DNA from: Pseudorhodobacter sp. PARRP1
GTDB lineage: Bacteria; Pseudomonadota; Alphaproteobacteria; Rhodobacterales; Rhodobacteraceae
Length of the DNA stretch: 53,564 nt
Assembly: GCA_002256245.1 (NCBI GenBank)
Contig: NKIU01000015.1
Coordinates: 1 to 53,564 of the forward strand
Reading direction: 5' to 3'
Shown: positions 4,398 to 28,204 of the stretch, one piece after another
Layout of the letters: the number at the start of each line of letters is the position of its first letter
How positions within the stretch are numbered: the stretch's first letter is position 1
The notes under the pieces: generated by a model
The model's input: only the letters and a program-made list of their open reading frames with translations
Told to the model about the DNA's origin: nothing
Databases searched by the model: none
Made by a program: the position numbers and the translations under genes

Positions 4398-4645
4398 GGG
4401 ACGCGCTGAAGGCAAACCTAGGGGTTTTGCCTTTACTGTGAGGTGCTGGAGGAGGTCAGCTTTCACTGGCCCGCATATAGCGATGTCATGATGCGTCTGA
4501 ACTCGGCGCAGCAGCCATGTGGGAATCCTACAGTTGATCCGATTAGCCGTTGCCGGATCACATGTGCCCCGTTTAGTATCTATAAATTAAGGATAATTCG
4601 ATTTGCGCCTATCTTGGCGCTTGGCGTGGTTAGGAGGTGGATCAT
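4398..4645. other. Spacer with weak hairpin; presumed hsd promoter region
   Basis: The stretch contains an imperfect stem AAGGCAAA/TTTGCCTT (4409-4433) without a T-tract, which is at best a weak terminator for the gene before it. It then holds an AT-rich patch around 4570-4590 (TATAAATTAA) that could be the -10 region of the hsd operon. No matching -35 at normal spacing was found, so the promoter is inferred from position. Confidence 0.3.
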
Positions 4646-7099: not shown

Positions 7100-7102
7100 C
7101 CC

Positions 7103-10308: not shown

Positions 10309-10380
10309 CCGCGCCGCCTTGGCTGCATCCGGTGTCCGCTTTGACTTTGTGATGTTCATTTGAAGAAAGATTTGCCTGCC

Positions 10381-13300
10381 ATGTTGACCCAAACAGACCG
10401 CCTGACGACCAAAGTTCTGAATGATGCCCGGCGCAAGCTGCTGGAAACCGGCACGCGCAACCGCCTGATCCACGTCAACCGCGCGAACCAGCGGACCAAT
10501 ACGCTGAACATCATCAACGAGCGGGCGGATGAAACCTTTGGCATCTTGCGCGATCAGGCCAAGCGGATGCGATTCAAGCCCACGGGCAAGGATCGCAAGC
10601 CCGGCGAGGGGGAAGAGGACAGCCAGTTCACCCTGTTGCCGATGGAGATGGAACCGGCAAGTGCGGCAGGCCCGGAGCGGTTTACCGATCAGTTCCTTGA
10701 CACCCCGCTAGGCCCCGAAGCGCAGGCGCGCCGGTTGCTGCGGCTGGCCTCTGATGCCCGCACTGCCGAGGAAGAGCAGGGGCTGAACATCCTTTACCTT
10801 GCCATCGGGTTCCTGAAATGGCGCGAAAGCAGCAGTTCGGATGTGTGGCGCGAGGCCCCCTTGGTGTTGTTGCCGGTTGAATTGGTGCGCAACGAGCGGA
10901 CCTCGACCCATGACATCCGCGCGCGGGAGGATGACATCACCACCAACCTGCCGCTGCAAGAACGCTTGCGCACGGATTTCGGCATCTTGCTGCCCGAGAT
11001 TGATGAAGGCGAAGGCTGGCAGCCGTCTGGGTATTTTGCCCAAGTGGCGGATGCGGTGTCGGGCCAATCGGGCTGGACGGTGGATGCCGATGGGATGCAG
11101 CTTGGGTTCTTCTCCTTCGCTAAGCTGTTGATGCACCGCGATCTTGACCCGGCGGCGTGGCCGGACGGCGGGCTGACGGAAAGCCCTTTGCTGGGCGGGC
11201 TTTTGGCCGAAGGGTTCGATGGCGGCACGTCGATTTTCGGGCCAGAGGACAAGCTGGATGTGCTGTTGGACCCGGCGGATATCATTCAGGTCGTCGATGC
11301 CGACGCGTCGCAAACCAAGGTCATCGAAGAGGTGCGGCGGGGGGCGAACCTTGTGGTGCAGGGGCCACCCGGCACGGGTAAATCGCAGACCATCACCAAC
11401 CTGATCGCAGCGGCGGCGCATGACGGCAAGACGGTGCTGTTCGTGGCCGAAAAGATGGCGGCGTTGTCGGTTGTGCATCACCGTCTGGTGCGTTCGGGTC
11501 TGCGCGATATCTGTCTGGAATTGCATTCGCGCAATGCGAACAAAAAGGCGCTGGCGCAAGAACTTGGGCGGACCCTGATGGCCAGTGCGGCTGCGGTGCC
11601 GGGGGTGTCTGATGCCTCGGGTCTGCGCCAGAACCGGGATGCATTAAACAGGATTTCAGACCTGCTGCACAAATCCTTGGGTGCATCTGGTGACACGCCT
11701 TTCCGAGCCATGTCCGAGATTATCGGCCTGATTGGGAAGGGGGCGCAGCCGCCATCGATCCCGCTGGACGGGCTTGAACGGTTCGGCGCCCCTGAGCGTA
11801 AGGCCGCGTTGGGGGCCATCGCCAGGTATACCGAAGCCCTGCGGGTTACTGGTGCGCCGGAGGGTCACCCCTATCGCGGTGTGCGGGAGTATGAACTTCA
11901 GCCCACCGATCTATCGCGCCTGGTCGGCGAACTAGCCGCCGCCACTGCCGCGATGACACTTGTTTTGGATGAGGCGGCGCGGCTGGCGCCGAACCTGCTG
12001 CGACCTGCGCCTTTGTCGCTGGTGGATGCTACGGCGCTGGTCTCCGGTTTGAATAATCTGGCCTCAGCGCCCGAACATGCGCAGGTCTTCGTTAGCCAAA
12101 ACCTGTTTGATCGCGTCGGCCAGCCCCGTTTGATAGAGGCTTTGACAGCCGGCATCAAATGGACCGAAGCACGGCGCGAGGCCGAAGGTCGGTTCGCGGC
12201 TGCCGCGTGGTCGGCCGATGTCGGATCGCTACGTTCTGCCATTGCCCGTGGGCAATCATCCTTCTTTGCGCGCATTTTCGGGCCATATCGAAAGGCATCA
12301 GGTGTGCTGGCAGGGCTTTTGTCTGGCGCACTTCCAAAGGCCGCCGCTGAGCGTTTGGCGCTGATTGACCAATTGGCAGGCGTGCAAGCCCGACGGCAGC
12401 GCCTTGCGGATGAGGAGGCGTGGTTGCAAGGGGCCTTGGGTGAAAATTGGCGCGGCGAGCGCACGGATTTTGTCGGGATCAAGGCAATCACAACCTGGCT
12501 TGCAACGGCGAAGGCGGATGGCTTTGGCACGGCGCGCGATCTTTTGGCCGCGCTGGCGAAAATCGAAACGCCGGGGCAGGTCGCGCTTTCCTTGGAAGCT
12601 CTGGTGCGAGATGCACAGGCAAAGGCGGAAAAGCCAATTGCCCGGTTGCGGTTTGATCTTGAACAGGCCGAGTTTACGGCTGATTTGAAAGTGGCTGATC
12701 TAGCCGATCTGGCGGCAGTGTTTGAACGGATGCGGGCGGAAAATGGGCGCTATGCCGACTGGGCGGCGCTTGCGCGTGCAACGGCGCAGACGGTAGAAAA
12801 CGGGGCAGGGGGCGTAATTGACGCGGTTGCGGATGGTCGCGTCGAACCTGCTGCCGCTGAGAACGAATTCACCTATGCCTGCGCCGAAGCGCGTTGGAAT
12901 ACGGCGCGCGCGGTGCTGCCCGAACTTGGGCAACTGGCTGGGTTGGACCGGCATGAGCTTGTCCGGATGTTTCAGGCAAAGGAACGTTCGCGCCTTAACG
13001 ATTCCCAAGCATTGATCCTTGCGCGTCATTTTGCCCAGATACCAAAAGGCAGCATGGGGGAAATGGGCGTCATTCGCGGTGAGATTGGTCGCAAAAGCCG
13101 ACACAAGCCGATCCGCTGGGTGATGAAAAACGCAGGCTCGATGGTGCAGCGCATCAAGCCTGTCATGCTGATGAGCCCGATTTCTGTTGCGCAGTTTCTG
13201 CCGCCCGGCACCGTGACCTTTGATTTGCTGGTGATCGACGAGGCGTCGCAGATCCGGCCCGAGGATGCGCTGGGCGTGATTGCCCGCGCGCGCCAGATCG

Positions 13301-15087
13301 TGGTGGTCGGGGACCAAAAGCAACTGCCACCAACGTCGTTCTTTGATCGTCTTGTGGACGATGTCGAAGACAACGAAGAGGACGACGAAGTGCCCGCAGG
13401 CGCAACGGCGGCAGATATGGAAAGCATCCTGTCGCTTTGCGAAGCCCGTGGCTTGCGGTCGCGCATGCTGGAATGGCACTATCGTTCGCGCGATCCGTCC
13501 TTGATCCGGGTGTCCAACGCGGAATTCTATGGCGACAATCTGGTTCTGCCGCCGTCGCCACTGCAGCTTGATCCCAACTACGGGATGAAGTTCCGCCGAG
13601 TTCCCGGCGTTTATGCCCGTGGGAAAACCACGTCAGCCCGGGCTGGAACCAACAAGATCGAGGCGCAGCATGTGGTCAAAGCAGTTGCTGAACATGCCCG
13701 CAAAAGCCCCGACCTCTCGCTTGGCGTTGTGGCCTTTTCCAAAGCGCAGTCTGATACATTGACTGAGGCGTTGGAATATGAACGCCGCCGCGATCCGGTT
13801 CTGGACGCGTTCTTGCGCGAAGGTCGGGCTGAGGATGTTTTCGTCAAAAATATCGAGAACGTGCAAGGCGATGAGCGTGATGTGATCCTGATATCGGTAG
13901 GTTATGGCCCTCAAGAGCCAAACGGTCGGTTAGCGGCGATGTCTTTTGGCCCGGTGAATGGTGAGGGAGGGGAGCGCCGCCTGAACGTGCTGTTTTCACG
14001 CGCACGGGTGCGCTGCGAGATTTTTGCCTCATTTGATCCCGGCGACATCGACCCAAGCCGGTCATCGCGCGTCGGGCCGCGCGTGCTGAAACGCTTCCTC
14101 GATTTCGCGAAAACCGGCATCATTGAAGAACAGGTGGCAACTGGTCTTGATGCGGATAGCCCGTTTGAAGAGGATGTCGCCAGCATTATACGCGACCTTG
14201 GTTACGAGGCTGACCCGCAGGTTGGCACCGCAGGTTTCCGCATCGACATTGGGGTGCGCCATCCTGACCGACCCGGACAGTATATCGTCGCGGTTGAATG
14301 CGATGGGGCGGCATATCACGCGGCACTTTGGGCCCGCGAGCGTGACCGCTTGCGGCAGGATGTGCTCGAAGGCCTTGGCTGGCGTTTTCACCGGATCTGG
14401 AGCACAGATTGGTTCCATCGACGAGATCATGAGATACACCGTCTTGCTGAAGCCCTTATGGCCGCAAAAGAATTTTCGGCAGGCGGCATTGTTGTGCGGG
14501 GCGCGAATACCGGCGGAATTCTGCAGGTGGTTGATGTAGAACAGGGCGCGCTTGGACCGATCGAGATCGGCCATCTGGAGTTGACAGCACCGCCCTATCA
14601 GCGTGCCGACTTGTCGGTCCGAAGCACTGTCGAACCACATGAGGCGCCTCAGGGGCAGATCGGCGATCTGATCGTCAAGATTGTCGAGATTGAAGGGCCG
14701 ATCCATGTCGACGAAATCGCAAGACGTGTCGCGGCGGCCTTTGGCAAGCTTAAGGCGGGCAGCCGGATCGTTGACGCGACAGCGCGTGCCTTGAATGCCG
14801 TGCAGAGAAGCAGCGACAATCGCCTTAAAACGGTGGGCCCGTTTGTAATGACAGCAGATCAGGCCGCCTCACCGCCGGTTAGAGACCGGAGGGCCGAGAC
14901 GGCTGGGGTCCTGAAGGCGGAATACCTGCCTCCAATGGAGATTTCCGCGGCGGTGGCGAGGATAAGCGCAGAAAGTGGCATCATGCCACCTGAAGAAATG
15001 ACCAAAGCCGTGGCGCGACTGCTTGGCTTTCAACGTGTTGGGCCGGATTTGTCGGAGGGTATTATGGCGATCGTAATGAGAGACTGA
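10381..15087 (+). CDS. DUF4011 / SF1 helicase / Vsr-like nuclease / DUF3320 giant defence protein
   Basis: This protein of about 1568 residues combines an N-terminal DUF4011 region, an AAA/SF1 helicase split by a long helical insertion, a nuclease and a C-terminal DUF3320. Visible helicase motifs are QGPPGTGKS (about 334-341), LLVIDEASQ (about 956), VVGDQKQLPPTS (about 984), EWHYRSRD, NVQGDERDVILIS and RRLNVLFSRAR. A Vsr/MTES_1575-type endonuclease follows (about 1285-1355: FRIDIGV, AVECDGAAYH, and GLGWRFHRIWSTDWF). Proteins of this plan are common in defence islands, and some are reported as anti-phage (the 'hhe' group, from memory). It begins 72 bp after hsdS in the same direction and may be cotranscribed. 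The start could instead be a TTG 21 bp upstream (10360); neither has a strong ribosome site. Confidence 0.85.
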   Translation: MLTQTDRLTTKVLNDARRKLLETGTRNRLIHVNRANQRTNTLNIINERADETFGILRDQAKRMRFKPTGKDRKPGEGEEDSQFTLLPMEMEPASAAGPERFTDQFLDTPLGPEAQARRLLRLASDARTAEEEQGLNILYLAIGFLKWRESSSSDVWREAPLVLLPVELVRNERTSTHDIRAREDDITTNLPLQERLRTDFGILLPEIDEGEGWQPSGYFAQVADAVSGQSGWTVDADGMQLGFFSFAKLLMHRDLDPAAWPDGGLTESPLLGGLLAEGFDGGTSIFGPEDKLDVLLDPADIIQVVDADASQTKVIEEVRRGANLVVQGPPGTGKSQTITNLIAAAAHDGKTVLFVAEKMAALSVVHHRLVRSGLRDICLELHSRNANKKALAQELGRTLMASAAAVPGVSDASGLRQNRDALNRISDLLHKSLGASGDTPFRAMSEIIGLIGKGAQPPSIPLDGLERFGAPERKAALGAIARYTEALRVTGAPEGHPYRGVREYELQPTDLSRLVGELAAATAAMTLVLDEAARLAPNLLRPAPLSLVDATALVSGLNNLASAPEHAQVFVSQNLFDRVGQPRLIEALTAGIKWTEARREAEGRFAAAAWSADVGSLRSAIARGQSSFFARIFGPYRKASGVLAGLLSGALPKAAAERLALIDQLAGVQARRQRLADEEAWLQGALGENWRGERTDFVGIKAITTWLATAKADGFGTARDLLAALAKIETPGQVALSLEALVRDAQAKAEKPIARLRFDLEQAEFTADLKVADLADLAAVFERMRAENGRYADWAALARATAQTVENGAGGVIDAVADGRVEPAAAENEFTYACAEARWNTARAVLPELGQLAGLDRHELVRMFQAKERSRLNDSQALILARHFAQIPKGSMGEMGVIRGEIGRKSRHKPIRWVMKNAGSMVQRIKPVMLMSPISVAQFLPPGTVTFDLLVIDEASQIRPEDALGVIARARQIVVVGDQKQLPPTSFFDRLVDDVEDNEEDDEVPAGATAADMESILSLCEARGLRSRMLEWHYRSRDPSLIRVSNAEFYGDNLVLPPSPLQLDPNYGMKFRRVPGVYARGKTTSARAGTNKIEAQHVVKAVAEHARKSPDLSLGVVAFSKAQSDTLTEALEYERRRDPVLDAFLREGRAEDVFVKNIENVQGDERDVILISVGYGPQEPNGRLAAMSFGPVNGEGGERRLNVLFSRARVRCEIFASFDPGDIDPSRSSRVGPRVLKRFLDFAKTGIIEEQVATGLDADSPFEEDVASIIRDLGYEADPQVGTAGFRIDIGVRHPDRPGQYIVAVECDGAAYHAALWARERDRLRQDVLEGLGWRFHRIWSTDWFHRRDHEIHRLAEALMAAKEFSAGGIVVRGANTGGILQVVDVEQGALGPIEIGHLELTAPPYQRADLSVRSTVEPHEAPQGQIGDLIVKIVEIEGPIHVDEIARRVAAAFGKLKAGSRIVDATARALNAVQRSSDNRLKTVGPFVMTADQAASPPVRDRRAETAGVLKAEYLPPMEISAAVARISAESGIMPPEEMTKAVARLLGFQRVGPDLSEGIMAIVMRD

Positions 15088-15331
15088 CGGCGGAGCAAGA
15101 ATTACGCGCTCGGCCCAAAGCTGCCTTTCGCGATGGACCGATGCTGCCAAGCAGCATGCCCCAAAGTGGTCGTTTGACAATGAGCGCAGCATTTCGCCCC
15201 ACTTCGCAGGGTATTCGCGTTTCAGACATTGCGCTCATTCGCGCTCATGCCATTCTGTGCCATCACGAAACAGCTATGGGCGCCAACCAAAATAATTTGA
15301 AGTCCTTTTGAAGGTCTCGCGCGCAAACTAA
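15088..15331. other. Convergent spacer between helicase gene and leftward genes
   Basis: No gene is seen. The 244-bp stretch carries a short perfect inverted repeat ATGCTGC-CAA-GCAGCAT (15140-15156) and repeated GCGCTCAT words near 15230-15250. Neither has a T-tract, so no terminator is called. Confidence 0.3.
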
Positions 15332-15916
15332 TTAGTCGCGCACAACCACCAGACCCTTTAGTTTTCCAGATCGGATATCTTTCTTGACGTATGCGGGAGA
15401 CAAATAATGGCGACGGACACCGCTAAAACTATCATATCCAAAGACATGGATGCGGACGACAACCTCCGGCGCCAGAGAAAATACACAATCAAGTGTTTTA
15501 CACGCCGCCAGCATAGCCTTTAGTGATGGAGGAGGTTGATCAATGTATGATGGCTCTTCCCGCTCGTCCATTATTCTAATTAAAGCGCGCCGGCCTGGTT
15601 CTATAATGGGAATTTGAGATGCATTTGTTCTTAGGCTGTAATAAATCCAACTTCCATGCCCAGCATATTTCCTAAATCCAATCCTCGCTACCACCTCGAC
15701 ATCCAAAATATCTCGTTTTCCAGTGTTCGTAAAAGCGCAAACATATAAAGCTTGCTTTTCACCTACAGAATATTTGCAAATTTCCGACCCAAAATCTAAA
15801 GATGGTATCCATTTGTGATTGATATACCACCAGACGATATATGAACCCAAAATTCCAATGGAGAGGGAAATGACGTGGGTGACAGCAGGGTGTTGAAAGA
15901 ATTCAATATTGCTCAT
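15332..15916 (-). CDS. Membrane-anchored hypothetical protein, 194 aa
   Basis: The protein has a single N-terminal membrane segment (about residues 11-31, THVISLSIGILGSYIVWWYI), then a soluble domain that looks beta-rich (ALYVCAFTNTGKRDILDVEVVARIGF) and may form an immunoglobulin-like sandwich. The C-terminal tail is basic. I do not recognise the family. GC content is low compared with the helicase gene and similar to the RT operon beside it. It lies 220 bp beyond the nitrilase gene on the same strand, so it could be the last gene of that operon or an independent island gene. One-helix membrane proteins are frequent effectors in defence systems, but here that is only a possibility. Confidence 0.6.
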   Translation of the reverse strand: MSNIEFFQHPAVTHVISLSIGILGSYIVWWYINHKWIPSLDFGSEICKYSVGEKQALYVCAFTNTGKRDILDVEVVARIGFRKYAGHGSWIYYSLRTNASQIPIIEPGRRALIRIMDEREEPSYIDQPPPSLKAMLAACKTLDCVFSLAPEVVVRIHVFGYDSFSGVRRHYLSPAYVKKDIRSGKLKGLVVVRD

Positions 15917-16046
15917 GATTCACAACTTTTTGGTTACCCCTGAAAAGATTCTTAATTGATGTCGGGGCGGTGCATCAATTTAAAATGACTGCAGACTCAT
16001 AACAACATCGACCAACATAACAATCGACCTTGCAGAAAAGATGTAA

Positions 16047-16080
16047 GGCAACAATTCGTCAATCCGCAACACGAATTGCC
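16047..16080 (-). terminator. Possible terminator after the nitrilase gene
   Basis: GGCAA(CA)ATTCGT and ACGAATTGCC form an imperfect stem with a small bulge and an 11-base loop, about 60 bp beyond the nitrilase stop. On the minus strand it is followed by a short CTTTT run after six bases. It could end the RT operon or be part of an RNA; the T-tract is weak. Confidence 0.25.
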
Positions 16081-16136
16081 TTCATATTGACTCTTATGAA
16101 GCTGGTGAAGCGCAATTGTTTCATCCAAATCATAAT

Positions 16137-17045
16137 CTATAGTACTGCATTTTTCATATCGAGCTCCGCAACGTCGTCATAACCTGGCGGCAAGCTTTTC
16201 ATGTCTTTGTGTAGTATGCCCTGCTGGTGTAACGCGAGAATTTCGAGAGGCAATTGAATGACTTGGGCGTTTGATAGACCCTGCCCTGCATGTCGGTAAA
16301 TTAGCCTACGATAGGGCTCTTGATACGGACTGACCGCAAGAGATCCGCCAAACTGGCCGCAATTGCAGATCACGACATTGCAAAAAAGCATCCGAGATAG
16401 AGCCTCTGCTAAATGATCAAAGGACGTCGTATCTCTATTGTAAGCAAGAATAAGGAGTGTCTGGATCTTGCTGCGATACATCACGATCCGATCGAGATCC
16501 ATAAAATCATAGCAGATCGCAACGGCGAATTTGCCTAGGTCAGGGCTCTCAAATACCCAGACCGTTGGGTGTGGAAGGAAGGCGACGCCGCCTCCCGTTA
16601 TGCTTTCTAGCTTCACTTTCTCTGCGGGTGCCGGGTAGGTCTTGCCGACCCTGCGCACCGTGGTGTGCCGCGCGATCTGCTGCCTTCGAAGCCGTCTCGG
16701 CACAATGACTATCGCTTCATTTGAAACAGTCGGCTTTGACTCGCCCGTTTCAATTCGATAATCAAGGCCCGCCACGATGATTGTCTCAAGGTTTTCGGCC
16801 GCTCGTCTGAGCATCGGTTCAAAGCCAAGGGGAACAGATAGTTCAGGTAATAGAATGATGTCTGGCAAGCGATCAAGTCCGCGTAACGAAGCAAGGAAGT
16901 GCCTTATCTCCCTCTTTGCGCGCCGCTCCTCGATTTCAGACATGCGCACACAACGCTCCCAGTTGCCTGATTTATCATCGATCCACGCCGCATCTGCTTG
17001 GAGCGAAGTCTGGATTATCCCGATATGAAGTCGTTCATTAACCAT
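16137..17045 (-). CDS. Nitrilase-superfamily (carbon-nitrogen hydrolase) protein linked to the RT
   Basis: This 302-residue protein shows the Glu-Lys-Cys triad of carbon-nitrogen hydrolases: E68 in IILLPELSVP, a lysine at 135 (GKTYPAPAEK; K143 is an alternative) and C178 in VAICYDFMD. It covers little more than the hydrolase fold. Family members cleave nitriles, amides or carbamoyl groups; the substrate here is unknown. The start is the ATG 6 bp after AAGGAG, which overlaps the RT stop by 8 bp, so the two proteins are probably made in fixed ratio. In DRT type 1 defence RTs a nitrilase domain is fused to the RT; here it is a separate gene. A metabolic role is unlikely given the tight coupling. 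Confidence 0.85.
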   Translation of the reverse strand: MVNERLHIGIIQTSLQADAAWIDDKSGNWERCVRMSEIEERRAKREIRHFLASLRGLDRLPDIILLPELSVPLGFEPMLRRAAENLETIIVAGLDYRIETGESKPTVSNEAIVIVPRRLRRQQIARHTTVRRVGKTYPAPAEKVKLESITGGGVAFLPHPTVWVFESPDLGKFAVAICYDFMDLDRIVMYRSKIQTLLILAYNRDTTSFDHLAEALSRMLFCNVVICNCGQFGGSLAVSPYQEPYRRLIYRHAGQGLSNAQVIQLPLEILALHQQGILHKDMKSLPPGYDDVAELDMKNAVL

Positions 17046-20000
17046 TATTAGCTCCTTCACCGTCACTGGCGCTTTCAGTTCCTATGGCAAAATCTGCAAG
17101 GCGAAAAGGGATGAGCTGGCGTGGCTGATTTCGCGCGACAGCAAGCTGATTGTCTTCTAGCACCCTCTGCGCTTTCCGAATTCCTTCAAGCAAGTCAGAA
17201 GGGCTGTAGAAAAGCGGTGGATCGAACGCCACATCGTTTGGCTCCTCGCCATCGCGCCAGCCGAACAAATTTGGCGAGCGTTTGATCGCGCGAGTTTCAG
17301 CAGGCCGAGCGCCGAGACAAGCTTCAACTATCAAAGTCGTGGGCGATGAAATAGCGAGCGCCTCGAACCAACGGGAGCGCGGGAGACGGAAAACCAGTTC
17401 GTTTCCGCGCAAGTTCCAGATCCGGGGAGCTGAATGATTGTTGCGCAAGAGCCCAAGGAGCAAGCGTCCGACCGCACTCAGTCGGCGCTCCGCAGGTGGT
17501 ATCAAAATCCCCGTCTTGCTATTGATGGTGTAGCGATAGTCAATCAGTGACGACCGCGTGTCACGCAGTCGCACAGGGAGGACATCCTTGGCGTCTGCGC
17601 CTTCTTTGACGAGACGTCGCCATTCTTCCCAGCTCAATTCAGTCATCTCGCGCCGGCAACTGAACTTGGTGACCCATTTCTGAGGCAAGAGCACATTGTT
17701 GGGGTGAATGCGGTCAAGAATGGCCTCATCACCGCCAGCCGATGTCGCTTCCTCGAGTAACTGAGCGACGATTTCCAGTGCCGTCCATTCACCACGGCGT
17801 GGATCGAAGGGGCTGCAAGAATGGACGCTGTTTGTCCACTCCTCAATTGTTATCCAACCTAGCGGAGCAGATTCAAGCGAGCGCGCCGCACGGGTGAAGG
17901 CATTCTTGCTGGTGGCTTTTGCTGAAGCTCGCCTGCCCTTATCGTTCCCGATAACCTCACGCAGCCAACCCGAGTCGTTTTCCGGTAATGGATCGGTCGC
18001 AGCGAGCAGCTGCGCCCAACCGGCCTCGGATAGAAGCTCCGGATAGCGCCGAGCCGCCTGCCGGTCCCGCCCCAGATCGAAATCGAAATACGGTGCTAAA
18101 GCTGACCAAGCGGCCGATGGTGTGGCGTCGCTTCCTAGACTGTTTTCGGCCAAGTGGGCCCATACACCAGAAGTTCGGCCGGTCTCAGAAAGCCATTTTT
18201 GGGCAAGCATGCCTGGTGAAACCGAAACATATGCTTGCGAGAGATGTGCCAAACTCCACGCTAAATCTGCATATTCAGCCCGCAAAGCAAGCGTTTCGGC
18301 CGCCACTATCAGAGCCACCCCGAACTCTCTTCGACCTGCAGCGTGATACCAAGTCTCACGCTCTACGGATACCCGAAAGACTGCTGTATCGAGCCGAGAA
18401 ATATCCTCGAGGTGACTCACGGCGGCCTTGATATCGGATTGCAGTGTATCCAGCGAAGTAAGTCGGCGTGCCGTTGCGAATATCCCGCTTGCCATGATTT
18501 GAAGCGAGAGCGCTGCATAATAGTCAGCCCAGACAGGGTGGCCGTTATCTTTTGTCTCCTTAAGCCAATCTGAAATTTCCTTTAAACCTTGATGGCCCGT
18601 CACTCGGCAGTATTGGTGTATCCGATAGAAAAGTCGCGCCTTACCGGGATGCTCCCTCACCGATTGAAGGAGTAGTTCAAAACACCGCTTGAGCAAAGTC
18701 CGCTCACCTTTGTCGTGCCTCTCCACACAAGACTGGAGCCTTTGCTTGAGCTCTGACATTGTTTTTTCAAACTTCAGTAAATCATCCTCAGTTGCTTTTG
18801 GGGCTTGAGGCCGCCGCCCCTCGTGCGACGCCACTTCGCGCGCAGCTTCAACAAGGCCATCAGCCTCCTGCACGAGAACTGGCACAAGCGATGCGATTTG
18901 TCCCGCTGCAAAGGCAGCTCTCGTGTCAGGGCGGATTTCACGCTCCGGAATATCGGCAAGCAAAAGCCATTCAAGCATTCTTAGCCGCTCGGCTAGATCT
19001 TCATCGTCAAGTGTATGGATATCAGTTGCTGCTATAGCGGAAACTTGCGCCAAAGTTTTTGTCATCAGTCTCGTAGGGTTCTTGCCGTCCAAGCGAGTTT
19101 CTCGCATTGCCAGCATATAGGTATCTGCTCCCATTGCTTTAAGTTTGGCATGCGAACTTCCATTTTTTAGTTCCTTTATCACACTACTTAAAATGGGTGG
19201 ATCTGATTTTTCTGAATTGACCGCGGGCCCAATCGCCTTCGACTCGAGTAACTTCTCATACCAAACAATCCAATCGCAAAGTTTAGAAAAATCATGCGCG
19301 ATAAATGTATGGTCGTCGACGAAGCGGAAGTGGGCAATGTCACGGCACTCGTCAATTTTCTGAGCAACAAGTCGGTCAATCGGCAGCATGGCGACGTTGG
19401 CAAGAAAACCTGCGACGAATAAGCCAGTTGGAACCCCCTTGACTCCACCCTTAAGAAATGGTGGATCGACGTTCTCAAGCGCTGTTTCAGGCATGCCTGT
19501 CATGTCGATCTGGAAGTTTAACATGCCTTGAACAAGAGAAGCGATCTCCGGTTCCGCCATCGCCCCAGCGTCTGCGAGACCTTCCATAACAGCAGCGATG
19601 TTGAGAGAAGGATAGAATTGCTTTAGGTCAATTGACGCATGGTAAAGATCGGTTTTGTAGCTGGCGGGGTCCGATTGGGGCCAGAAACCAGGTTGAAAGT
19701 ATTGGAGTCGAGCGCGCTGAGCGCTGACGGCGGCTAGCTGGTCCGGTTCATCCATTTCCTCGGGCCGCAAGTTTCGCCTTAATACCATCATTCGGGCCGT
19801 CAGCGTCACATGGCGACGGAACAAGGGCCAACTGTGTTGGAATTTGCGATAGAGATGACCGCTCGCGTGTCGATACGGACCGATTTCAAGAGTCGAGCCA
19901 CTCGCTTCGTCTCTTTCATACCAAGCAGGTCGATATAAACGATTCCCGTAACTCCACGGCTCCATTCTGAGATCAAGCTCGGGGCCGAGCGCGTTGACAA

Positions 20001-20292
20001 GCGCAATCCATGCAATTTGATCTTCGATCGCAATATGAAAATACTGACGATTGATAGACTGCTGTTCCTCAGAGATCTTTTTAGGGCGAGGTAATGGGCG
20101 AATTTTTTTCAGGCGATATCTTCCTCGCTCGAATTGCCGATGAATGTCAAGCAAGCGATTTTCAAGATCGAGTTCGAAATCAGAAAATTCACCAGCATCA
20201 ATAAATCCATCGGCGGCTCGGTAGATATTCTTCGCTTTATTCCAGGCAAAGTTTAAATTCTCTTGCGAGAGAAGGCGCTTATAGACGCTCAT
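17038..20292 (-). CDS. Defence-type (UG/Abi-like) reverse transcriptase with long helical C-terminus
   Basis: In this 1084-residue protein the RT fold occupies about 60-420. Motif A is IDLKQFYPSLN (D222) and the motif B-like segment is KGVPTGLFVAGFLANVAMLPID (about 285-306). Motif C is FRFVDDHTF (F324-V-D-D327 instead of YADD), followed by NSEKSD. All three catalytic aspartates are present, so polymerase activity is plausible. The N-terminus (YKRLLSQENLNFAWNKAK) resembles the RT0 region of group II-derived RTs. From about 430 to 1084 the chain is mainly helical repeats with no maturase or nuclease motif, as in UG/Abi defence RTs. Its ATG overlaps the primase stop by 4 bp and its end overlaps the nitrilase start. 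A group II intron origin is ruled out by the absence of maturase features. The UG group cannot be fixed without alignment. Confidence 0.85.
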   Translation of the reverse strand: MSVYKRLLSQENLNFAWNKAKNIYRAADGFIDAGEFSDFELDLENRLLDIHRQFERGRYRLKKIRPLPRPKKISEEQQSINRQYFHIAIEDQIAWIALVNALGPELDLRMEPWSYGNRLYRPAWYERDEASGSTLEIGPYRHASGHLYRKFQHSWPLFRRHVTLTARMMVLRRNLRPEEMDEPDQLAAVSAQRARLQYFQPGFWPQSDPASYKTDLYHASIDLKQFYPSLNIAAVMEGLADAGAMAEPEIASLVQGMLNFQIDMTGMPETALENVDPPFLKGGVKGVPTGLFVAGFLANVAMLPIDRLVAQKIDECRDIAHFRFVDDHTFIAHDFSKLCDWIVWYEKLLESKAIGPAVNSEKSDPPILSSVIKELKNGSSHAKLKAMGADTYMLAMRETRLDGKNPTRLMTKTLAQVSAIAATDIHTLDDEDLAERLRMLEWLLLADIPEREIRPDTRAAFAAGQIASLVPVLVQEADGLVEAAREVASHEGRRPQAPKATEDDLLKFEKTMSELKQRLQSCVERHDKGERTLLKRCFELLLQSVREHPGKARLFYRIHQYCRVTGHQGLKEISDWLKETKDNGHPVWADYYAALSLQIMASGIFATARRLTSLDTLQSDIKAAVSHLEDISRLDTAVFRVSVERETWYHAAGRREFGVALIVAAETLALRAEYADLAWSLAHLSQAYVSVSPGMLAQKWLSETGRTSGVWAHLAENSLGSDATPSAAWSALAPYFDFDLGRDRQAARRYPELLSEAGWAQLLAATDPLPENDSGWLREVIGNDKGRRASAKATSKNAFTRAARSLESAPLGWITIEEWTNSVHSCSPFDPRRGEWTALEIVAQLLEEATSAGGDEAILDRIHPNNVLLPQKWVTKFSCRREMTELSWEEWRRLVKEGADAKDVLPVRLRDTRSSLIDYRYTINSKTGILIPPAERRLSAVGRLLLGLLRNNHSAPRIWNLRGNELVFRLPRSRWFEALAISSPTTLIVEACLGARPAETRAIKRSPNLFGWRDGEEPNDVAFDPPLFYSPSDLLEGIRKAQRVLEDNQLAVARNQPRQLIPFRLADFAIGTESASDGEGANNG

Positions 20293-21386
20293 ATTTTCGT
20301 GTTCCCCTGTCTGAGGAAATCGTTGACATCGTTTGAACCGTCACGGGGCGCGGACTTTCGCGTCGCTGCAACACCGAACCGCACCAATTCCTTCCGCAAG
20401 GATGATGCGCGCATTTCTCCTGGTTGATCCCAGTCTAGAAGGATATCGACTTGCTTGCCGCGCAGCAATATAATCTCAGCGTCCGAGAGCTTCGCTGAAA
20501 TACCAATTAAACCAAAAGCCTCACACCCCATTTGCGTTGCGGATAACACATCAATGGCACCCTCGCAAATCGCCACTCTCCTCACCGTTGGATTGATTAG
20601 GACATCTGAATTGTAGAGACGTCTGCGACGGTTGTTTAGATTTCGCCAACGGCTGCCTTTTTCGTCGTCGATAATAGTGCGTGCTTGAATATACACGATC
20701 ATCCCTACTTCGAAATATGGAAAAAGTAGCGCGCCTTGCGGGAAAACTGGCCAATAACTGTCGGGTGTAGATCGTTTGGACAGAAGGCCGCATGCCTCTA
20801 CACGTCCGTATCCGAACCTATGTATAAGTTCTCCGATCACTGAGGTGGTCGGCATCTGACCAATAGCAAAGCGAGCTATAATTTCAGGGGAAAGGCTGCG
20901 TCCCAGCAGATAGTCGGCACCGCTTTTCAACAATGGGGCTCGAGCAATGAGCTCACCGTATAAAGTGTGGTCAGGCGGTGTCTCAGCGGTGTCGATGAAC
21001 TGCCGGGGGCGTATTAAGGAAGTCCGGCACTGTTGATTGGGTGTTGATGGCATAGTCGCCCATCTGGAGCCTTCCATGCCGACTTTCGCGGCAAGCCACT
21101 TCTTTGCTTCAAGAAACGAGGTTCCTTGGTAGGCCATTACTAGGTCTATGGCGCCACCGTGCTTGTCGCAGCCGTAGCAGCGCCAACGGTTTACTTGCTT
21201 TTTAATTTCGAACGAAGGCGTGTCATCGTCATGGCTTGGGAAAGGGCATCGAGCCATGCCTTTCGTCGGTAGCTTGATACCGAGTAGATTGCCAACTTCG
21301 TGGACCGCTAAGGAATTAAGTGCCTGCGTGTCGTCTTTCATGCCCATGCACATTGCTAGACCATGATGATCGACCGCTGCAACCAT
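20289..21386 (-). CDS. DnaG-like primase: CHC2 zinc finger plus Toprim domain
   Basis: This 365-residue protein starts with a CHC2-type zinc finger (C47-x4-H52, then C70-x2-C73, in CPFPSH...WRCYGCDKHGG). It continues with a DnaG-like core and ends in a Toprim domain (VAICEGAIDVL with E275; ILLDWDQPGE with D318 and D320; then DGSNDVNDFL). It is shorter than DnaG (about 600) and lacks the helicase-binding C-terminus, so a phage/plasmid-type primase is the best comparison. The stop overlaps the RT start as ATGA, strong evidence for joint function. It may make a primer for the RT. The start is uncertain: ATGs at 21353, 21347 and 21341 are alternatives and none has a good ribosome site. Confidence 0.85.
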   Translation of the reverse strand: MVAAVDHHGLAMCMGMKDDTQALNSLAVHEVGNLLGIKLPTKGMARCPFPSHDDDTPSFEIKKQVNRWRCYGCDKHGGAIDLVMAYQGTSFLEAKKWLAAKVGMEGSRWATMPSTPNQQCRTSLIRPRQFIDTAETPPDHTLYGELIARAPLLKSGADYLLGRSLSPEIIARFAIGQMPTTSVIGELIHRFGYGRVEACGLLSKRSTPDSYWPVFPQGALLFPYFEVGMIVYIQARTIIDDEKGSRWRNLNNRRRRLYNSDVLINPTVRRVAICEGAIDVLSATQMGCEAFGLIGISAKLSDAEIILLRGKQVDILLDWDQPGEMRASSLRKELVRFGVAATRKSAPRDGSNDVNDFLRQGNTKI

Positions 21387-21520
21387 TGATCGGTCAACAA
21401 CGGCGTTTATCGTGGCGTGAGTTCACTTTGTTCTGGCTACGCGCTTGTCTGCTCACAAAAGACTGTGCTCGCGTAAGCTTCCAATGCCAATGGATGGTTC
21501 TTCTTCAAAAGCAACACCAG
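21387..21520. other. 134-bp spacer inside the exonuclease-primase-RT-nitrilase cluster
   Basis: This is the only real gap in an otherwise overlapping cluster, and no open frame bridges it. Several DRT systems use a small RNA encoded beside the RT as template, so this spacer is a natural place to look. I see no strong hairpin or clear promoter boxes in it. It may simply be the promoter of the primase-RT-nitrilase transcript. Confidence 0.3.
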
Positions 21521-22903
21521 CTAACCGCGACCAGTCACGCTCAACACCTGCCGAATGAACTCGTCAATCTCATCAAGCAGCGCATTCTCAGCGCCAAGCT
21601 GTGACCGCAGTTCGGTTATGGCCCGCTTGGCTGAGGCTATGGTCGTCCACTCTGCCTCCGGCACATCCGCAGTCCAACGTTCGCGCAGGAATGCCTTAAA
21701 ACTCTCTGCTTCTTCCGCGGTCATGATTTCGGGCGCATGGAAGGCTATCAGCCTTCGTCCTAGCTGGCGCAGACGAACATCGGTCAGCAGATCAACGACT
21801 TCCCGGCGCCGGGGCCAGTCGGCAAGCTGGAACTCGGCCAGCAATTCACGATCAGCCTTGGCATAGAACCCGCTATATATGCGCTTTTCAACTGATTGCG
21901 GCGGCACAGCCGGCTCCGCGTTGTAGCGCGCGGCGATTGCCTTGCCAATCCGAGCGCGGAAAGCAGGGTTGGCTTCGATTAAGGCTGCTTTGCGCAGATG
22001 GTTAAAGTCTGGATTGGTGATCGGAAAGAGAGAGGGGCTTTTGTTGATCGAGATGCTTCGGATGATTTGGGGCGCTCCATATACCGCTTGGAACAGTGCC
22101 GCGTCGTCGGCCAACATCAAGGCTTCTGGGTCGCCCGCCTCCAGATCAAAAAAGGCTGCTTGGTTCGGGTTTCGAGCAGCCGTGCCACAGAAGCATCCAA
22201 CATAGGAGCGCGGCGAGCCGCCACCGAAGCGAAGCACTAGCTCAAGCGGGCGGAAAGTTTCCAAAGTCGCAGTGACGTTCTGCTTGTCGCGGTTTTGCAG
22301 GATAGCCGACCACAGCGCGGTATCGCCGTTGGCGATGATGCGCGCGATATGGATCGTGGCCTCGACATCGCCAAGCGCATCATGAGCATTGTGAGCGTTG
22401 AAGCCGTTTGCAGGGGCAAGTCGATCCAGCTTGAAGGTAGTGCGCCCGGTATCGTCGGTCGGCCAATTCATCAAACCGGGATTGCGACACCACACAGCAT
22501 AGACAGCGGTCAGGATGTCGAGCCGGGTGTTACCATTCAACTGCGTTGCATATATGTTGGGCTGCAGGTTCTGGTAAAACGCCTGACGCAGCACCTCCTC
22601 ATCAAAACGGATGGTGTTGAAGCCCACCCATGTCGCAGGCGCCCAAAGTTCGGTCAGCTCCATAATGGCCTGTGTGAATTCGAACAACGACGGCAGCTTG
22701 GGGTCAACCAGCTGCGCGGGTGTGATGCCGGTGACAATCAGCGCCTTCGGGGACGGGATGATATGTGTCGCGATCCGGCAGCGAAAGTTGACGCGCTCGA
22801 GCTCGGCAAAATTGTCATCTGTGCGGATCGCTGCAAACTGCAGCGGCTGATCAAAAGCGGGGGACATCCCGGTGGTCTCAAGATCGTAAAAGACAAATGC
22901 CAT
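21521..22903 (-). CDS. Exonuclease I-like (SbcB-type) DEDDh 3'-5' exonuclease
   Basis: This 460-residue protein has a DnaQ-like exonuclease domain with acidic residues D7 and E9 (FYDLETTG), D101 (NTIRFDEEVL), H174 and D179 (NAHDALGDVEAT). It is followed by the extended region typical of E. coli exonuclease I (475 residues), which degrades single-stranded DNA from 3' ends. It reads in the same direction as the primase-RT-nitrilase genes, 134 bp ahead of them. It may be part of that system, for example trimming RT product, or an independent defence gene. A 1-bp stop/start overlap (TGATG) links it to an upstream truncated frame. Chromosomal sbcB is uncommon in this group, which favours an island origin. 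Confidence 0.85.
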   Translation of the reverse strand: MAFVFYDLETTGMSPAFDQPLQFAAIRTDDNFAELERVNFRCRIATHIIPSPKALIVTGITPAQLVDPKLPSLFEFTQAIMELTELWAPATWVGFNTIRFDEEVLRQAFYQNLQPNIYATQLNGNTRLDILTAVYAVWCRNPGLMNWPTDDTGRTTFKLDRLAPANGFNAHNAHDALGDVEATIHIARIIANGDTALWSAILQNRDKQNVTATLETFRPLELVLRFGGGSPRSYVGCFCGTAARNPNQAAFFDLEAGDPEALMLADDAALFQAVYGAPQIIRSISINKSPSLFPITNPDFNHLRKAALIEANPAFRARIGKAIAARYNAEPAVPPQSVEKRIYSGFYAKADRELLAEFQLADWPRRREVVDLLTDVRLRQLGRRLIAFHAPEIMTAEEAESFKAFLRERWTADVPEAEWTTIASAKRAITELRSQLGAENALLDEIDEFIRQVLSVTGRG

Positions 22904-23097
22904 CAGACGGGCCTTTCGAACAAATATGTTTCATTCACCTCGTCACTGGATGCGCGCGCAACGTCATATGGTCCACTCCGCCCCATTACAGCGTAAATCA
23001 ATGTTTTGGCATAATCACCAGTAGCTGTCGCTTTATCAACGACTTCTGGCTCGTTCCGTCCCCCAATAATACCGAAATCGTTCTGGCTAAACGTTGA
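22903..23097 (-). pseudogene. Possible 3' remnant of a gene upstream of the exonuclease
   Basis: A frame of 64 codons closes exactly at the exonuclease start (TGATG overlap), as real operon partners do. It reads ...NDFGIIGGRNEPEVVDKATATGD and ends NETYLFERPV. It has no credible start: an in-frame stop lies at 23098-23100 and the first ATG leaves only 27 residues. The composition looks coding. I read it as the C-terminal scrap of a gene whose front was lost, perhaps when the region next to the IS66 copy was rearranged. I do not recognise the protein. Confidence 0.35.
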
Positions 23098-23485
23098 TCA
23101 GCTGCTTTTGTAATAGCGCTCAAACGACAATGCCACGCGGCCATCAGCCTACTTTCCGCCCCTCAGAAACACCTCTCGCCCACCCCGCCGCGCACTGCTT
23201 GAGTGACCGCTTGCCCAGTTTCGCTGCGGCTGCCACGCCGCACCGCCATCAGACCGCTTTCCGCCCTTAGCGTCGATGATGTCGTTCAGCGAGGTCAAAT
23301 GGCGCAAGAAAACTCAGGTAGATTACGTCGGTTGCGCGTCCCCGCAACCAATACTAATAGTTACTGTCGAGTTCAGGCTGCTCGCGCAGTGCAGGGTGGG
23401 ATGATTGCTCGCGACAGTGCGAAACAGTGCGCAAATCCTGTTTACGCAACCATAGATTCTACATTTTGCGTATCTCCCGTTCGCG
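23098..23485. other. Non-coding stretch left of the IS66 element
   Basis: No frame with a ribosome site is seen on either strand. There are two degenerate copies of a phrase like GCCATCAG...CTTTCCGCCC (near 23141 and 23245), which look like decayed intergenic repeats. This may be debris of the gene whose 3' remnant precedes the exonuclease. Confidence 0.3.
23478..23485 (+). repeat. Target-site duplication, left copy (CGTTCGCG)
   Basis: These eight bases immediately before the left inverted repeat are identical to the eight after the right end; 8 bp is the standard duplication length of IS66. Confidence 0.9.
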
Positions 23486-26174: not shown

Positions 26175-28001
26175 TTATCGCCCGCCGAGCTGATCCGGAG
26201 CAGTGATTGGCAATCGGGGCAGTTGCCGGATCGCGGCCAGCTTTGCCTCTGACGGCGTGGTTTGCGTATAGCGCTCGCTCGTCACATTGTTGCCGGTGTG
26301 GCCAATGATGTCCTTGATCACCCGATCCGGAACGCCCTCCATCTGGGTCAGCTGGGTTGTCACATAGTGCCGGAAGCTGTGGAACGACTTGTTCTCGACC
26401 CGTGCCCCCAGTTGCTGCTCCGCGATCATCCGGAACTTGTAGTCGATCTTGTCGCCGAGCTTAACGTCATTCGGGGTGCGCAGATCTGGAAAGAGCAGAT
26501 CGGACCCCGATGCCGCCAACTGGGTCGCACGGGCCACAAGTCCCAGCTCAACCAGCTGCGGATGCAGTGGTAGGTCGCGCGTCGAGGCGAGGGTCTTCAG
26601 ACCTCGGATCCGATTCGGCTTGATCCGGAACGTCGGGATTCCTTCAAGGATTTCGATTTCATCGGGCATGAGGCCGGCGATTTCGGCCCGCCGCGCGCCG
26701 GTGAGGGCCGCAATAATTGGCAACCAATAGAGGCCATCTTGCTCGATGAACGTGCCGGGTTTGTTCCACGATTTGCCCTTCCCGCTGCCCTGCCAGACCG
26801 GGTGCCGGAGAATTGCCTGAACATCGTCCACCGAATAAGCCGCGCGCACGTCACGGTCACGCTGGCTCTTTCGAGGGCGCAGGGATGAGGCGTCGATCAG
26901 CGTCAGGGCCTGATAGCCCTCGCTGGCACCCTTGGTAAAAAGTTGACCGAGGTAGTTCAGGTTGCGATTGATCGTCGCGTCCGAGAGGCCGATCTGATTG
27001 GTGGGCTTCGCCTTAGCCTCATTGAGAATTTGCTTCAGGCTCTTGTCCTTATCTTTGGTAGATTTGCGATAGCTCTGTGGCAGGGTCCGCAGCACGTCCA
27101 CAAACTGCGCGAGATGCGTTTGGCGCAGGTTACGGATATCGGCGACGCCTGTCGCCTCCGCGAACAGCTGAAACACCTTGGCCATCTGATCGATCATTTG
27201 GGCGCTGACCTTCTGGCGCGTCTTCAGGGCGCTGAAACGCCCGACCAGCGCGGACCATGCCGGATCATAGGCCGCAACAGCTTCATCGATAGCGGCCGTA
27301 GGTGTAGGGGCAGGGCGTTCTGCAGTTGGGGAGGCGAGTTGTTCGGCCAGCTGCATCGCCCCATCAAAGCCATTGCTCTGGCTATGGGCGGATTGCAGGT
27401 AAGCGGCACCGCGACCGGCAATATAGAGCTGCCGCGCGACAAGATATTCAGCGGCTTGAAACTGTTTGCGACCGAGCGTCTCGCGCAATTGCTCGGCGAT
27501 CACCACGCCCGGCCCCTCATTGGGGCTGGCATAGGCCAGCTCTGATTGGCGCTCCAAATGTCCGCGCAGGCGATCAATATCCTGTTCAGAGCGGCCTTCC
27601 CGCCGAAGATGCTCAGCATCTTGGTCCGTTAAGGGATCCGCCTCGCAGCCGGTTTCGGAAATCATCTTAAGTGCTGTGCCGATTGCCCAGTCATGTGCGC
27701 GGTCGTCCGCCGTATCAGCCCGCCCGCGTGGCTCCGAGCGTAGCACGGCGATCTTCTTCATCTCGCGAACAATAATTTGTTCCAGAAACTTGCGAGCATG
27801 CTCGCGGGATAGGCCTTGAACGGTCATGGTGTCGAATACGCTGTTGCTCTCGGCGCTGACAATCGCACCCAAGCGACGCGCAATCAACGGGTCATTCGTT
27901 CGCAGGCTGATTTGCAGGATTGTGCCGCCCAAATGGACAGGGATTCGCCTACGCCAGACATAAGCCGCGCCGCGTCGATAAAGGTTGGTTTGAAGCCCCA
28001 T
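26175..28001 (-). CDS. int: Tyrosine recombinase (phage/ICE-type integrase)
   Basis: This 608-residue site-specific recombinase is presumed to integrate and excise the island at tRNA-Asn. The catalytic set is visible in the C-terminal third: R in TGARRAEIAG (about 430), H541 and R544 in HSFRHY, H568 in IGHTGNN, and Y578 in SERYTQT. The N-terminal 400 residues hold an Arm-type head (YVWRRRIPVHL) and a long helical region, the plan of large proteobacterial island integrases with a DUF6538-like N-terminus. The ATG has GAGGGG 6 bp upstream. The promoter interval carries an 18-bp perfect palindrome, a likely operator. No excisionase gene was seen. Confidence 0.92.
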   Translation of the reverse strand: MGLQTNLYRRGAAYVWRRRIPVHLGGTILQISLRTNDPLIARRLGAIVSAESNSVFDTMTVQGLSREHARKFLEQIIVREMKKIAVLRSEPRGRADTADDRAHDWAIGTALKMISETGCEADPLTDQDAEHLRREGRSEQDIDRLRGHLERQSELAYASPNEGPGVVIAEQLRETLGRKQFQAAEYLVARQLYIAGRGAAYLQSAHSQSNGFDGAMQLAEQLASPTAERPAPTPTAAIDEAVAAYDPAWSALVGRFSALKTRQKVSAQMIDQMAKVFQLFAEATGVADIRNLRQTHLAQFVDVLRTLPQSYRKSTKDKDKSLKQILNEAKAKPTNQIGLSDATINRNLNYLGQLFTKGASEGYQALTLIDASSLRPRKSQRDRDVRAAYSVDDVQAILRHPVWQGSGKGKSWNKPGTFIEQDGLYWLPIIAALTGARRAEIAGLMPDEIEILEGIPTFRIKPNRIRGLKTLASTRDLPLHPQLVELGLVARATQLAASGSDLLFPDLRTPNDVKLGDKIDYKFRMIAEQQLGARVENKSFHSFRHYVTTQLTQMEGVPDRVIKDIIGHTGNNVTSERYTQTTPSEAKLAAIRQLPRLPITAPDQLGGR

Positions 28002-28129: not shown

Positions 28130-28204
28130 TGGCTCCGGCGGTAGGGATCGAACCTACGGCCAAGCGATTAACAGTCGCTTGCTCTACCGCTGAGCTACGC
28201 CGGA
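28130..28204 (-). tRNA. tRNA-Asn (anticodon GTT)
   Basis: This is a 75-nt cloverleaf. Acceptor TCCGGCG pairs with CGCCGGA, followed by discriminator G and an encoded CCA. The D-arm is AGCTCAGCGGTAGAGC, the anticodon stem AGCGA/TCGCT encloses CTGTTAA (anticodon GTT), and the T-arm is GTAGGTTCGATCCCTAC. The gene is complete, so if it is the attachment site the element restores its 3' end on integration. The crossover core is expected in the T-arm/acceptor part, next to the integrase. Confidence 0.95.

Follow-up and report, generated by a model that had tools for sequence, protein, structure and literature searches.

What is the compact leftward operon at positions 16137-22903 of contig NKIU01000015.1 from Pseudorhodobacter sp. 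PARRP1 (GenBank assembly GCA_002256245.1), in which an exonuclease, a primase, a reverse transcriptase (RT) and a nitrilase-fold hydrolase are encoded in succession? The whole stretch of 53,564 nucleotides, referred to here as the window, was analyzed. All four open reading frames (ORFs) were confirmed on the minus strand, each of them intact and with its catalytic residues present. In searches against PADLOC-DB, the RT matched RT_UG6 with 1369.5 bits over residues 109-1076 (the next-best RT model scored 49.6 bits), the primase matched RTasDnaG-like with 452.5 bits, the nitrilase matched RTasNitrilase with 408.1 bits and the exonuclease matched RTasSbcB with 702.3 bits. These models are all described as belonging to defense-associated reverse transcriptase (DRT) systems, and the matches span nearly the whole length of the proteins, starting at residue 109 in the RT. 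Because each of the four proteins has its own dedicated DRT model, the locus is, as judged from profile matches, a UG6 DRT cassette located in an integrase/tRNA-Asn island, and its make-up has already been catalogued. The novelty claimed in the original prediction, that no described system has this exact make-up, is thus lost: four dedicated models match at 408 to 1370 bits, and the RT falls in a described group with known partners, RT_UG6 with three RTas models.

We take the source of the PADLOC-DB UG6 models to be the UG/Abi classification of Mestre et al. 2022. The available text of the myRT paper (PMC8934634) gives one UG6 RT with a nitrilase neighbor. UG6 is catalogued, yet no functional study of it was found within the literature searched, where this paper, as far as its available text goes, was the only one to use UG6 in the RT sense. 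What lies beyond the catalogue is the presence of exonuclease genes of other families, a primase-RT fusion in one relative, and a membrane protein gene at 15332-15916. The last has no PADLOC model match, and no RT-associated PADLOC model matches two of the 13 DnaQ-like neighbors, the PolB-type neighbor or the DUF2779 neighbor described below.

The ORF coordinates bear out the four leftward genes and both of the overlaps that had been proposed. Primase and RT share ATGA at 20289-20292 (4 bp), and RT and nitrilase share ATGGTTAA at 17038-17045 (8 bp), taking the ATG at 17045, with GGAG just before it, as the likely nitrilase start. The true start of the primase may be slightly 3' of its first ATG. 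To Pfam the primase shows Zn_ribbon_DnaG and Toprim_2, and the exonuclease RNase_T (PF00929) and Exonuc_X-T_C (PF08411), all over their cut-offs; the RT matches RVT_1 (E 1.1e-5) and the nitrilase CN_hydrolase (E 0.0014), both under the curated cut-offs.

Searching the GTDB genome collection with nitrilase and RT motifs as the query returned 33 loci (L006-L038), a minimum number, as the search depended on exact peptide seeds. The co-presence of nitrilase and RT in these loci is not independent, as both were in the query; the primase and the exonuclease were absent from it. The primase is encoded in 31 of the 32 evaluable loci (L032 is without it; L008 is cut by a contig end and not evaluable). 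According to the record titles, the loci come from alpha-, beta-, gamma- and deltaproteobacteria, Campylobacterota, Bacteroidota, Bacillota, Verrucomicrobia and Chlorobiaceae, with many metagenome assemblies. Of 29 loci measured, 27 have overlapping primase and RT ORFs, with an overlap of exactly 4 bp in 19, and the RT and nitrilase ORFs overlap in 24 of 28 when measured from the first possible nitrilase start; hand-copied coordinates were used for these measurements. In L028 (5122-9525), primase and UG6 RT form a single ORF of 1467 amino acids. The pairwise distances of RT, primase and nitrilase are correlated among 27 cassettes including the window (Spearman 0.81-0.84, with none of 1000 permutations as high). 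The core of the cassette is primase-RT-nitrilase. Relatives in several phyla have the same gene order, so the association of the genes is not due to chance. The primase, presented earlier as an addition, is present as described; it is not special to the PARRP1 locus, as 31 of 32 evaluable loci carry it.

L017 is nearly a duplicate of L016; it was kept in the counts of residue invariance, RT-tree changes and exonuclease adjacency, and left out of column identities, exonuclease motif alignments, distance correlations and overlap measurements. The RT set leaves out L008, because of the contig cut, and L014, L035 and L036, in which the RT is found as two ORFs; a pseudogene, an assembly error and a real split are all possible there.

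The active sites of the three core proteins are strictly conserved. In the primase, C47, H52, C70 and C73 and the acidic residues E275, D279, D318, D320 and D353 are invariant in 32 of 32 sequences; in the RT, D222, D326 and D327 are invariant in 30 of 30; and in the nitrilase, E75, K142, E149, C185 and the lid residue K290 are invariant in 33 of 33. The zinc-ligand and catalytic roles of these residues are presumed from the alignments and general knowledge of the folds. The primase family profile matches residues 3-335 of Aquifex DnaG (2au3, E 1.2e-28), covering the zinc-ribbon and RNA-polymerase parts only. A replicative DnaG was considered and rejected, as the cassette primase has only 365 residues and no helicase-binding C-terminal domain; the other match in the PARRP1 genome is 24% identical to it. 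Separately, a CHC2/Toprim primase relative overlapping an ATP-dependent helicase gene was seen on a Manganitrophus plasmid (L004:8001-10872), and neither RT nor nitrilase had a match in the 17-kb L004 stretch around it.

The nitrilase links the cassette to DRT1. Its single match among PDB sequences is DRT1 (9yfd, E 1.5e-14, limit 0.1), and a profile search against PDB also gave DRT1 (E 2.4e-27, limit 0.001). The relation to DRT1 that had been suspected was therefore correct, and is stronger than claimed. Counted along the pairwise alignment, C185 is aligned with C1116 of DRT1 and K290 with K1219, and P293 (33 of 33), P294 (31 of 33) and G295 (31 of 33) are placed opposite P1222, A1223 and G1224. 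According to the available text of PMC13275509, immunity is lost in the C1116A mutant of DRT1, and K1219A and A1223F do as much harm as deletion of the C-terminus, which covers the nitrilase pocket as a lid. When searched against plasmids, the nitrilase matched genes in 11 records; nine of these genes carry the annotation reverse transcriptase, and the other two records, both from Sphingopyxis, are near-identical. On one of these two Sphingopyxis plasmids (L002:5922-8699), an ORF of 444 amino acids beside an IS1247-type element appears to be the nitrilase end of a gene for an RT-nitrilase.

The AlphaFold2 model of the RT (pLDDT 86.4, pTM 0.89) has a group II-like RT domain at about residues 1-400 and a long helical domain at about residues 410-1065. 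Group II intron RTs are at the top of the 50 Foldseek matches listed for this model, with DRT2, DRT4, DRT9 and AbiK lower, and the DRT1 structure 9yfd is absent among these 50. The assignment as a group II intron RT or maturase was rejected based on the TIGR04416 score of 36 bits against a cut-off of 300. The RT family profile matches DRT1 with E 1.9e-12, and the Drt1a model scores 47.9 bits on the RT. A conserved non-coding RNA as a partner of the RT, which would mark an ncRNA-dependent DRT or a retron, found no support. Rfam, which covers known families and would miss a novel RNA, gave no match up to E 1 within 15000-23400, and when 20 upstream and 11 downstream flanks were compared in pairs, the matches lay in coding ends, except for the pair L018/L020, which alone share a stretch lying about 60-200 nt upstream of their primase genes.

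The exonuclease is the variable member of the cassette. The PARRP1 protein is, from its DEDDh motifs and ExoI C-terminal domain, of the ExoI (SbcB) type; it matches ExoI in the PDB with E of about 1e-46 and scores 231.7 bits with PRK11779 exoI, narrowly under the 260-bit cut-off. No second ExoI was found in the PARRP1 genome by protein search. It also matches a phage family of unknown function, phrog_19080, nearly end to end (557 bits). Of 34 cassettes, the window included, 21 have an exonuclease-type gene no more than 1 kb from the core: ExoI in six (window, L006, L007, L008, L012, L032), DnaQ-like in 13, PolB-type (PF10108) in L023 and DUF2779 in L026. The Paracoccus denitrificans DSM 413 locus, L020, is one of those with a DnaQ-like gene. 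The profiles used for this count were built from the same neighbors that were counted, so they classify rather than discover. The DUF2779 protein is taken to be a nuclease because it has a DxE motif and matches DEDDh weakly (E 0.044); the DUF2779 gene of L030 lies 2.2 kb away and is excluded from the 21. The operon does include an exonuclease as had been noted, with ExoI being just one among several types in that role.

The position of the exonuclease gene also varies, being upstream or downstream of the core. Among 12 measured DnaQ-like genes, eight overlap the core or start within 3 bases of it, two are 5-8 bases away and one is 90 bases away, and one overlaps the core by 133 bases counted from its first start. 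The ExoI gene of L007 is on the opposite strand and interrupted by masked bases; aside from this masked stretch, every aligned sequence, 12 DnaQ-like and six ExoI, keeps the DEDDh motifs. RNase_T has three matches in the 4.35-Mb PARRP1 genome, the cassette ExoI among them, and about 0.1 chance adjacencies are estimated for 34 loci from the PARRP1 genome alone. The distances of the DnaQ-like proteins correlate with those of the RT (0.71, 2 of 1000 permutations, 11 loci). On the RT tree the exonuclease type changes at least nine times, with absence counted as a state and L030 labelled DUF2779 in spite of its distant gene. Because the neighbors come from different families, the exonuclease looks interchangeable. 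It is noted that the DnaQ-like neighbors share a conserved C-terminal extension, with a sub-threshold DUF5710 match (E 0.0069) in the protein of L018:10423-11337.

Based on these observations, we tentatively favor, with somewhat less than even confidence, a model in which the UG6 cassette works as a split, primase-assisted DRT1 with a role in defense. The RT and the separate nitrilase would join in one oligomeric complex. Single-stranded DNA of non-genomic sequence made by the RT would license the assembly of the nitrilase yet keep it dormant. The DnaG-like primase, whose gene overlaps or is fused to that of the RT, would start or sense this DNA synthesis, either by providing a short RNA primer or by loading on single-stranded phage DNA. 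The cassette's dedicated 3'-5' exonuclease could trim the DNA down to a protected length. This role is assigned to it because, in the available text of PMC13275509, the adducts of DRT1 measure about 17-30 nt, whether native or treated with ExoI, and because, in that of PMC13213688, exonuclease breaks down the DNA of DRT4 unless it is protected by a phage protein. Phage replication proteins would upset this balance, so that the nitrilase opens and hydrolyzes an essential metabolite, and the infected cell would die ahead of phage spread. The membrane protein, where present, may be an additional effector or an anchor. That the genes act together and are candidates for defense, as first suggested, agrees with the recurring overlaps, the co-variation, the primase-RT fusion of L028 and the location of some relatives inside or beside restriction-modification (R-M) genes.

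Several observations weigh against this model. In 13 of 34 cassettes, two of them cut by contig ends, no exonuclease-type gene is found at a distance of 1 kb or less. The ExoI domain was absent from the hosts of the 12 loci without an exonuclease, a search that did not extend to other exonucleases. Since both the nearby gene and the host ExoI domain are missing in these cases, trimming of this kind cannot be a universal requirement. A host ExoI standing in for the missing gene found no support on the same count, 0 of 12, an absence that is weak given the many draft and metagenome assemblies; across all hosts, the ExoI C-terminal domain is found in 6 of 33 genomes, five of which include the cassette's own copy (positions matched by hand), and a copy outside the cassette is found in 3 of 33 (L012, L017, L032). 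In the RT, position 420, placed opposite the priming serine S402 of DRT1 in a hand alignment via L003, is I, V or L in UG6. L003 is a DRT1-type relative (Drt1a by PADLOC), and the hhalign profile alignment ends at its residue 385, before the S402 equivalent. T413 and S418 are invariant near this segment, and primase priming and protein priming are indistinguishable here. Finally, the scan for defense neighbors was made with ten hand-picked genes and had no random control, and two of the ten gave nothing.

The possibility that deserves most attention besides the split, primase-assisted model, and that we consider real though rather unlikely, is a DRT whose RT primes itself as in DRT1, with the Toprim primase being a phage sensor or a nuclease-like effector instead of a primer-maker. 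In its favor, the invariant T413 and S418 are close to the segment with the DRT1 priming serine, and the class 3 DRTs tested (DRT1, DRT5S and DRT5L) are protein-primed and template-free in the available text of PMC13275509. Toprim domains also serve in other defense systems, as far as the sources available describe them, in the RT-Toprim fusion of retron-Eco2 and in AriB, the Toprim nuclease of PARIS. However, the UG6 primase keeps the DnaG zinc-binding domain, the RNA-polymerase core and all metal ligands checked, which seems more than a Toprim nuclease needs.

A direct attack on phage DNA is improbable. In this reading the primase and RT would begin spurious synthesis on single strands of the phage and the exonuclease would destroy exposed ends, leaving the nitrilase as a secondary effector. 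Three of the four cassette enzymes belong to families acting on single strands or primers, and both aligned exonuclease types keep their active-site motifs. The nitrilase, however, is no less conserved than the RT (47% versus 41% mean column identity) and keeps the lid residue that is essential in DRT1. It is most improbable that the cassette is replication or maintenance machinery of a mobile element: primase, RT and exonuclease could serve such replication, and integrase and transposase genes share the island, but the RT has no plasmid match at E 1e-20 and no phage match at 1e-10, the relatives are in unrelated contexts, one of them inside a type I R-M operon, and the nearest matches of the nitrilase are DRT1 and genes on plasmids, most of which are annotated as RT.

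The membrane protein encoded after the nitrilase is likely a further component of the cassette. It has one predicted membrane-type helix (residues 10-34) and a beta domain, and relatives of its gene are found at L007, in the same place and direction, and at L013, in the opposite direction, that is, in 3 of 34 cassettes including the window. The best of five models, built from three sequences, has a pLDDT of 77, the others being at or below 59.5. All of the 50 Foldseek matches listed are Kir/KirBac channels, with E of about 1e-6 to 2e-5 and TM-scores of 0.42-0.51 by query length. The resemblance of the modeled beta domain to the cytoplasmic domains of Kir channels is a lead and not an identification. 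The gene was not found in the 397 other Pseudomonadota genomes sampled or in plasmids. Such rarity would fit a UG6 partner, but would equally fit any rare gene, because UG6 itself is also missing from such a sample. The available text of PMC13275509 speculates that Drt1b, a transmembrane partner of DRT1, could act like the Hailong ion channel. A small membrane-like ORF also follows the nitrilase in L028 (10387-11019).

The setting of the cassette is as had been described, beside a type I restriction system and a helicase-nuclease in a mobile island (Table 1), which also contains transposase genes. The ends of the island were not located by searches of the window and the other contigs for an att repeat: no second copy is present in the window, and one copy with one mismatch is found on another contig (C22:34305).

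Table 1. Positions of the cassette genes and neighboring features in the window.
Feature	Positions	Strand	Length	Remarks
ExoI/SbcB-type DEDDh 3'-5' exonuclease (RTasSbcB)	21521-22903	-	460 aa	
DnaG-like primase, CHC2 zinc ribbon and Toprim core (RTasDnaG-like)	20289-21386	-	365 aa	
UG6 reverse transcriptase, FVDD	17038-20292	-	1084 aa	
Nitrilase-fold hydrolase (RTasNitrilase)	16137-17066	-	309 aa	Length counted from first GTG
Accessory membrane protein (likely)	15332-15916	-	194 aa	Follows nitrilase, same direction
DUF4011/MTES_1575 helicase-nuclease	10360-15087			PADLOC PDC-S37, 1775 bits, nearly full length; adjoins type I R-M
Type I HsdR/HsdM/HsdS	4637-10308			Neighbor of cassette
Tyrosine integrase	26175-28001			Beside tRNA-Asn 28130-28204

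Defense genes are also found near some relatives. The L031 cassette is inside a type I R-M operon, L034 is beside a type III R-M system and L015 is beside MzaC; LmuB is near L028, and L009 has a weak Avs1b match. UG6 is rare, being found in one of 398 genomes of a phylum sample and one of 390 of an order sample, the PARRP1 genome both times. The RT tree mixes host groups, with Paracoccus among sphingomonads for example, which is consistent with horizontal transfer. The plasmid search with the RT, when relaxed to E 0.01, gave two Vibrio matches of 54 bits. Scans of viral contigs with RT, primase, RT-core and nitrilase queries, using single-sequence patterns by which close relatives only are detectable, gave no confirmed relative.

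A more specific proposal, which we put forward as speculative and doubtful as a whole, is that the DnaG-type primase, and not the RT itself or a non-coding RNA, would start the defensive DNA, that the swappable exonuclease would act as a length-setting antitoxin for the nitrilase, and that the Kir-like protein would be a second effector in some loci. If true, primase-initiated reverse transcription would be a new mode of initiation for a defense RT. That exonuclease families are swapped suggests that DNA trimming is an activity under selection. UG6 would divide among several proteins what DRT1 does in one, and because they are spread in this way, the proposed roles of synthesis, initiation, DNA trimming and killing could be separated gene by gene.

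We have compared the cassette with known DRT systems. From the UG6 DRT group, the PARRP1 cassette shows no difference in core make-up. It resembles DRT1 (UG1, PDB 9yfd) in having a homologous nitrilase, with the catalytic cysteine and the C-terminal lid lysine aligned, and a homologous RT domain. In DRT1, however, RT and nitrilase are fused in a protein of about 1230 amino acids, whereas in the PARRP1 cassette they are separate genes overlapping by 8 bp. UG6 also adds a DnaG-like primase and often an exonuclease, and the priming serine of DRT1 is not evidently conserved in it. Primase-polymerases and DnaG/Toprim primases are unrelated folds. As far as the available text of PMC13213688 describes it, the RT of DRT7 is likewise paired with a priming enzyme; there the RT is fused to a primase-polymerase, whereas the UG6 partner is a DnaG/Toprim primase. 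In DRT4, as presented in the same text (PMC13213688), degradation by exonuclease limits the single-stranded DNA made by the RT until a phage protein protects it, which is similar to the trimming proposed here; DRT4 is, however, described in that text as a single-gene system, whereas the PARRP1 cassette has an exonuclease gene beside that of its RT.

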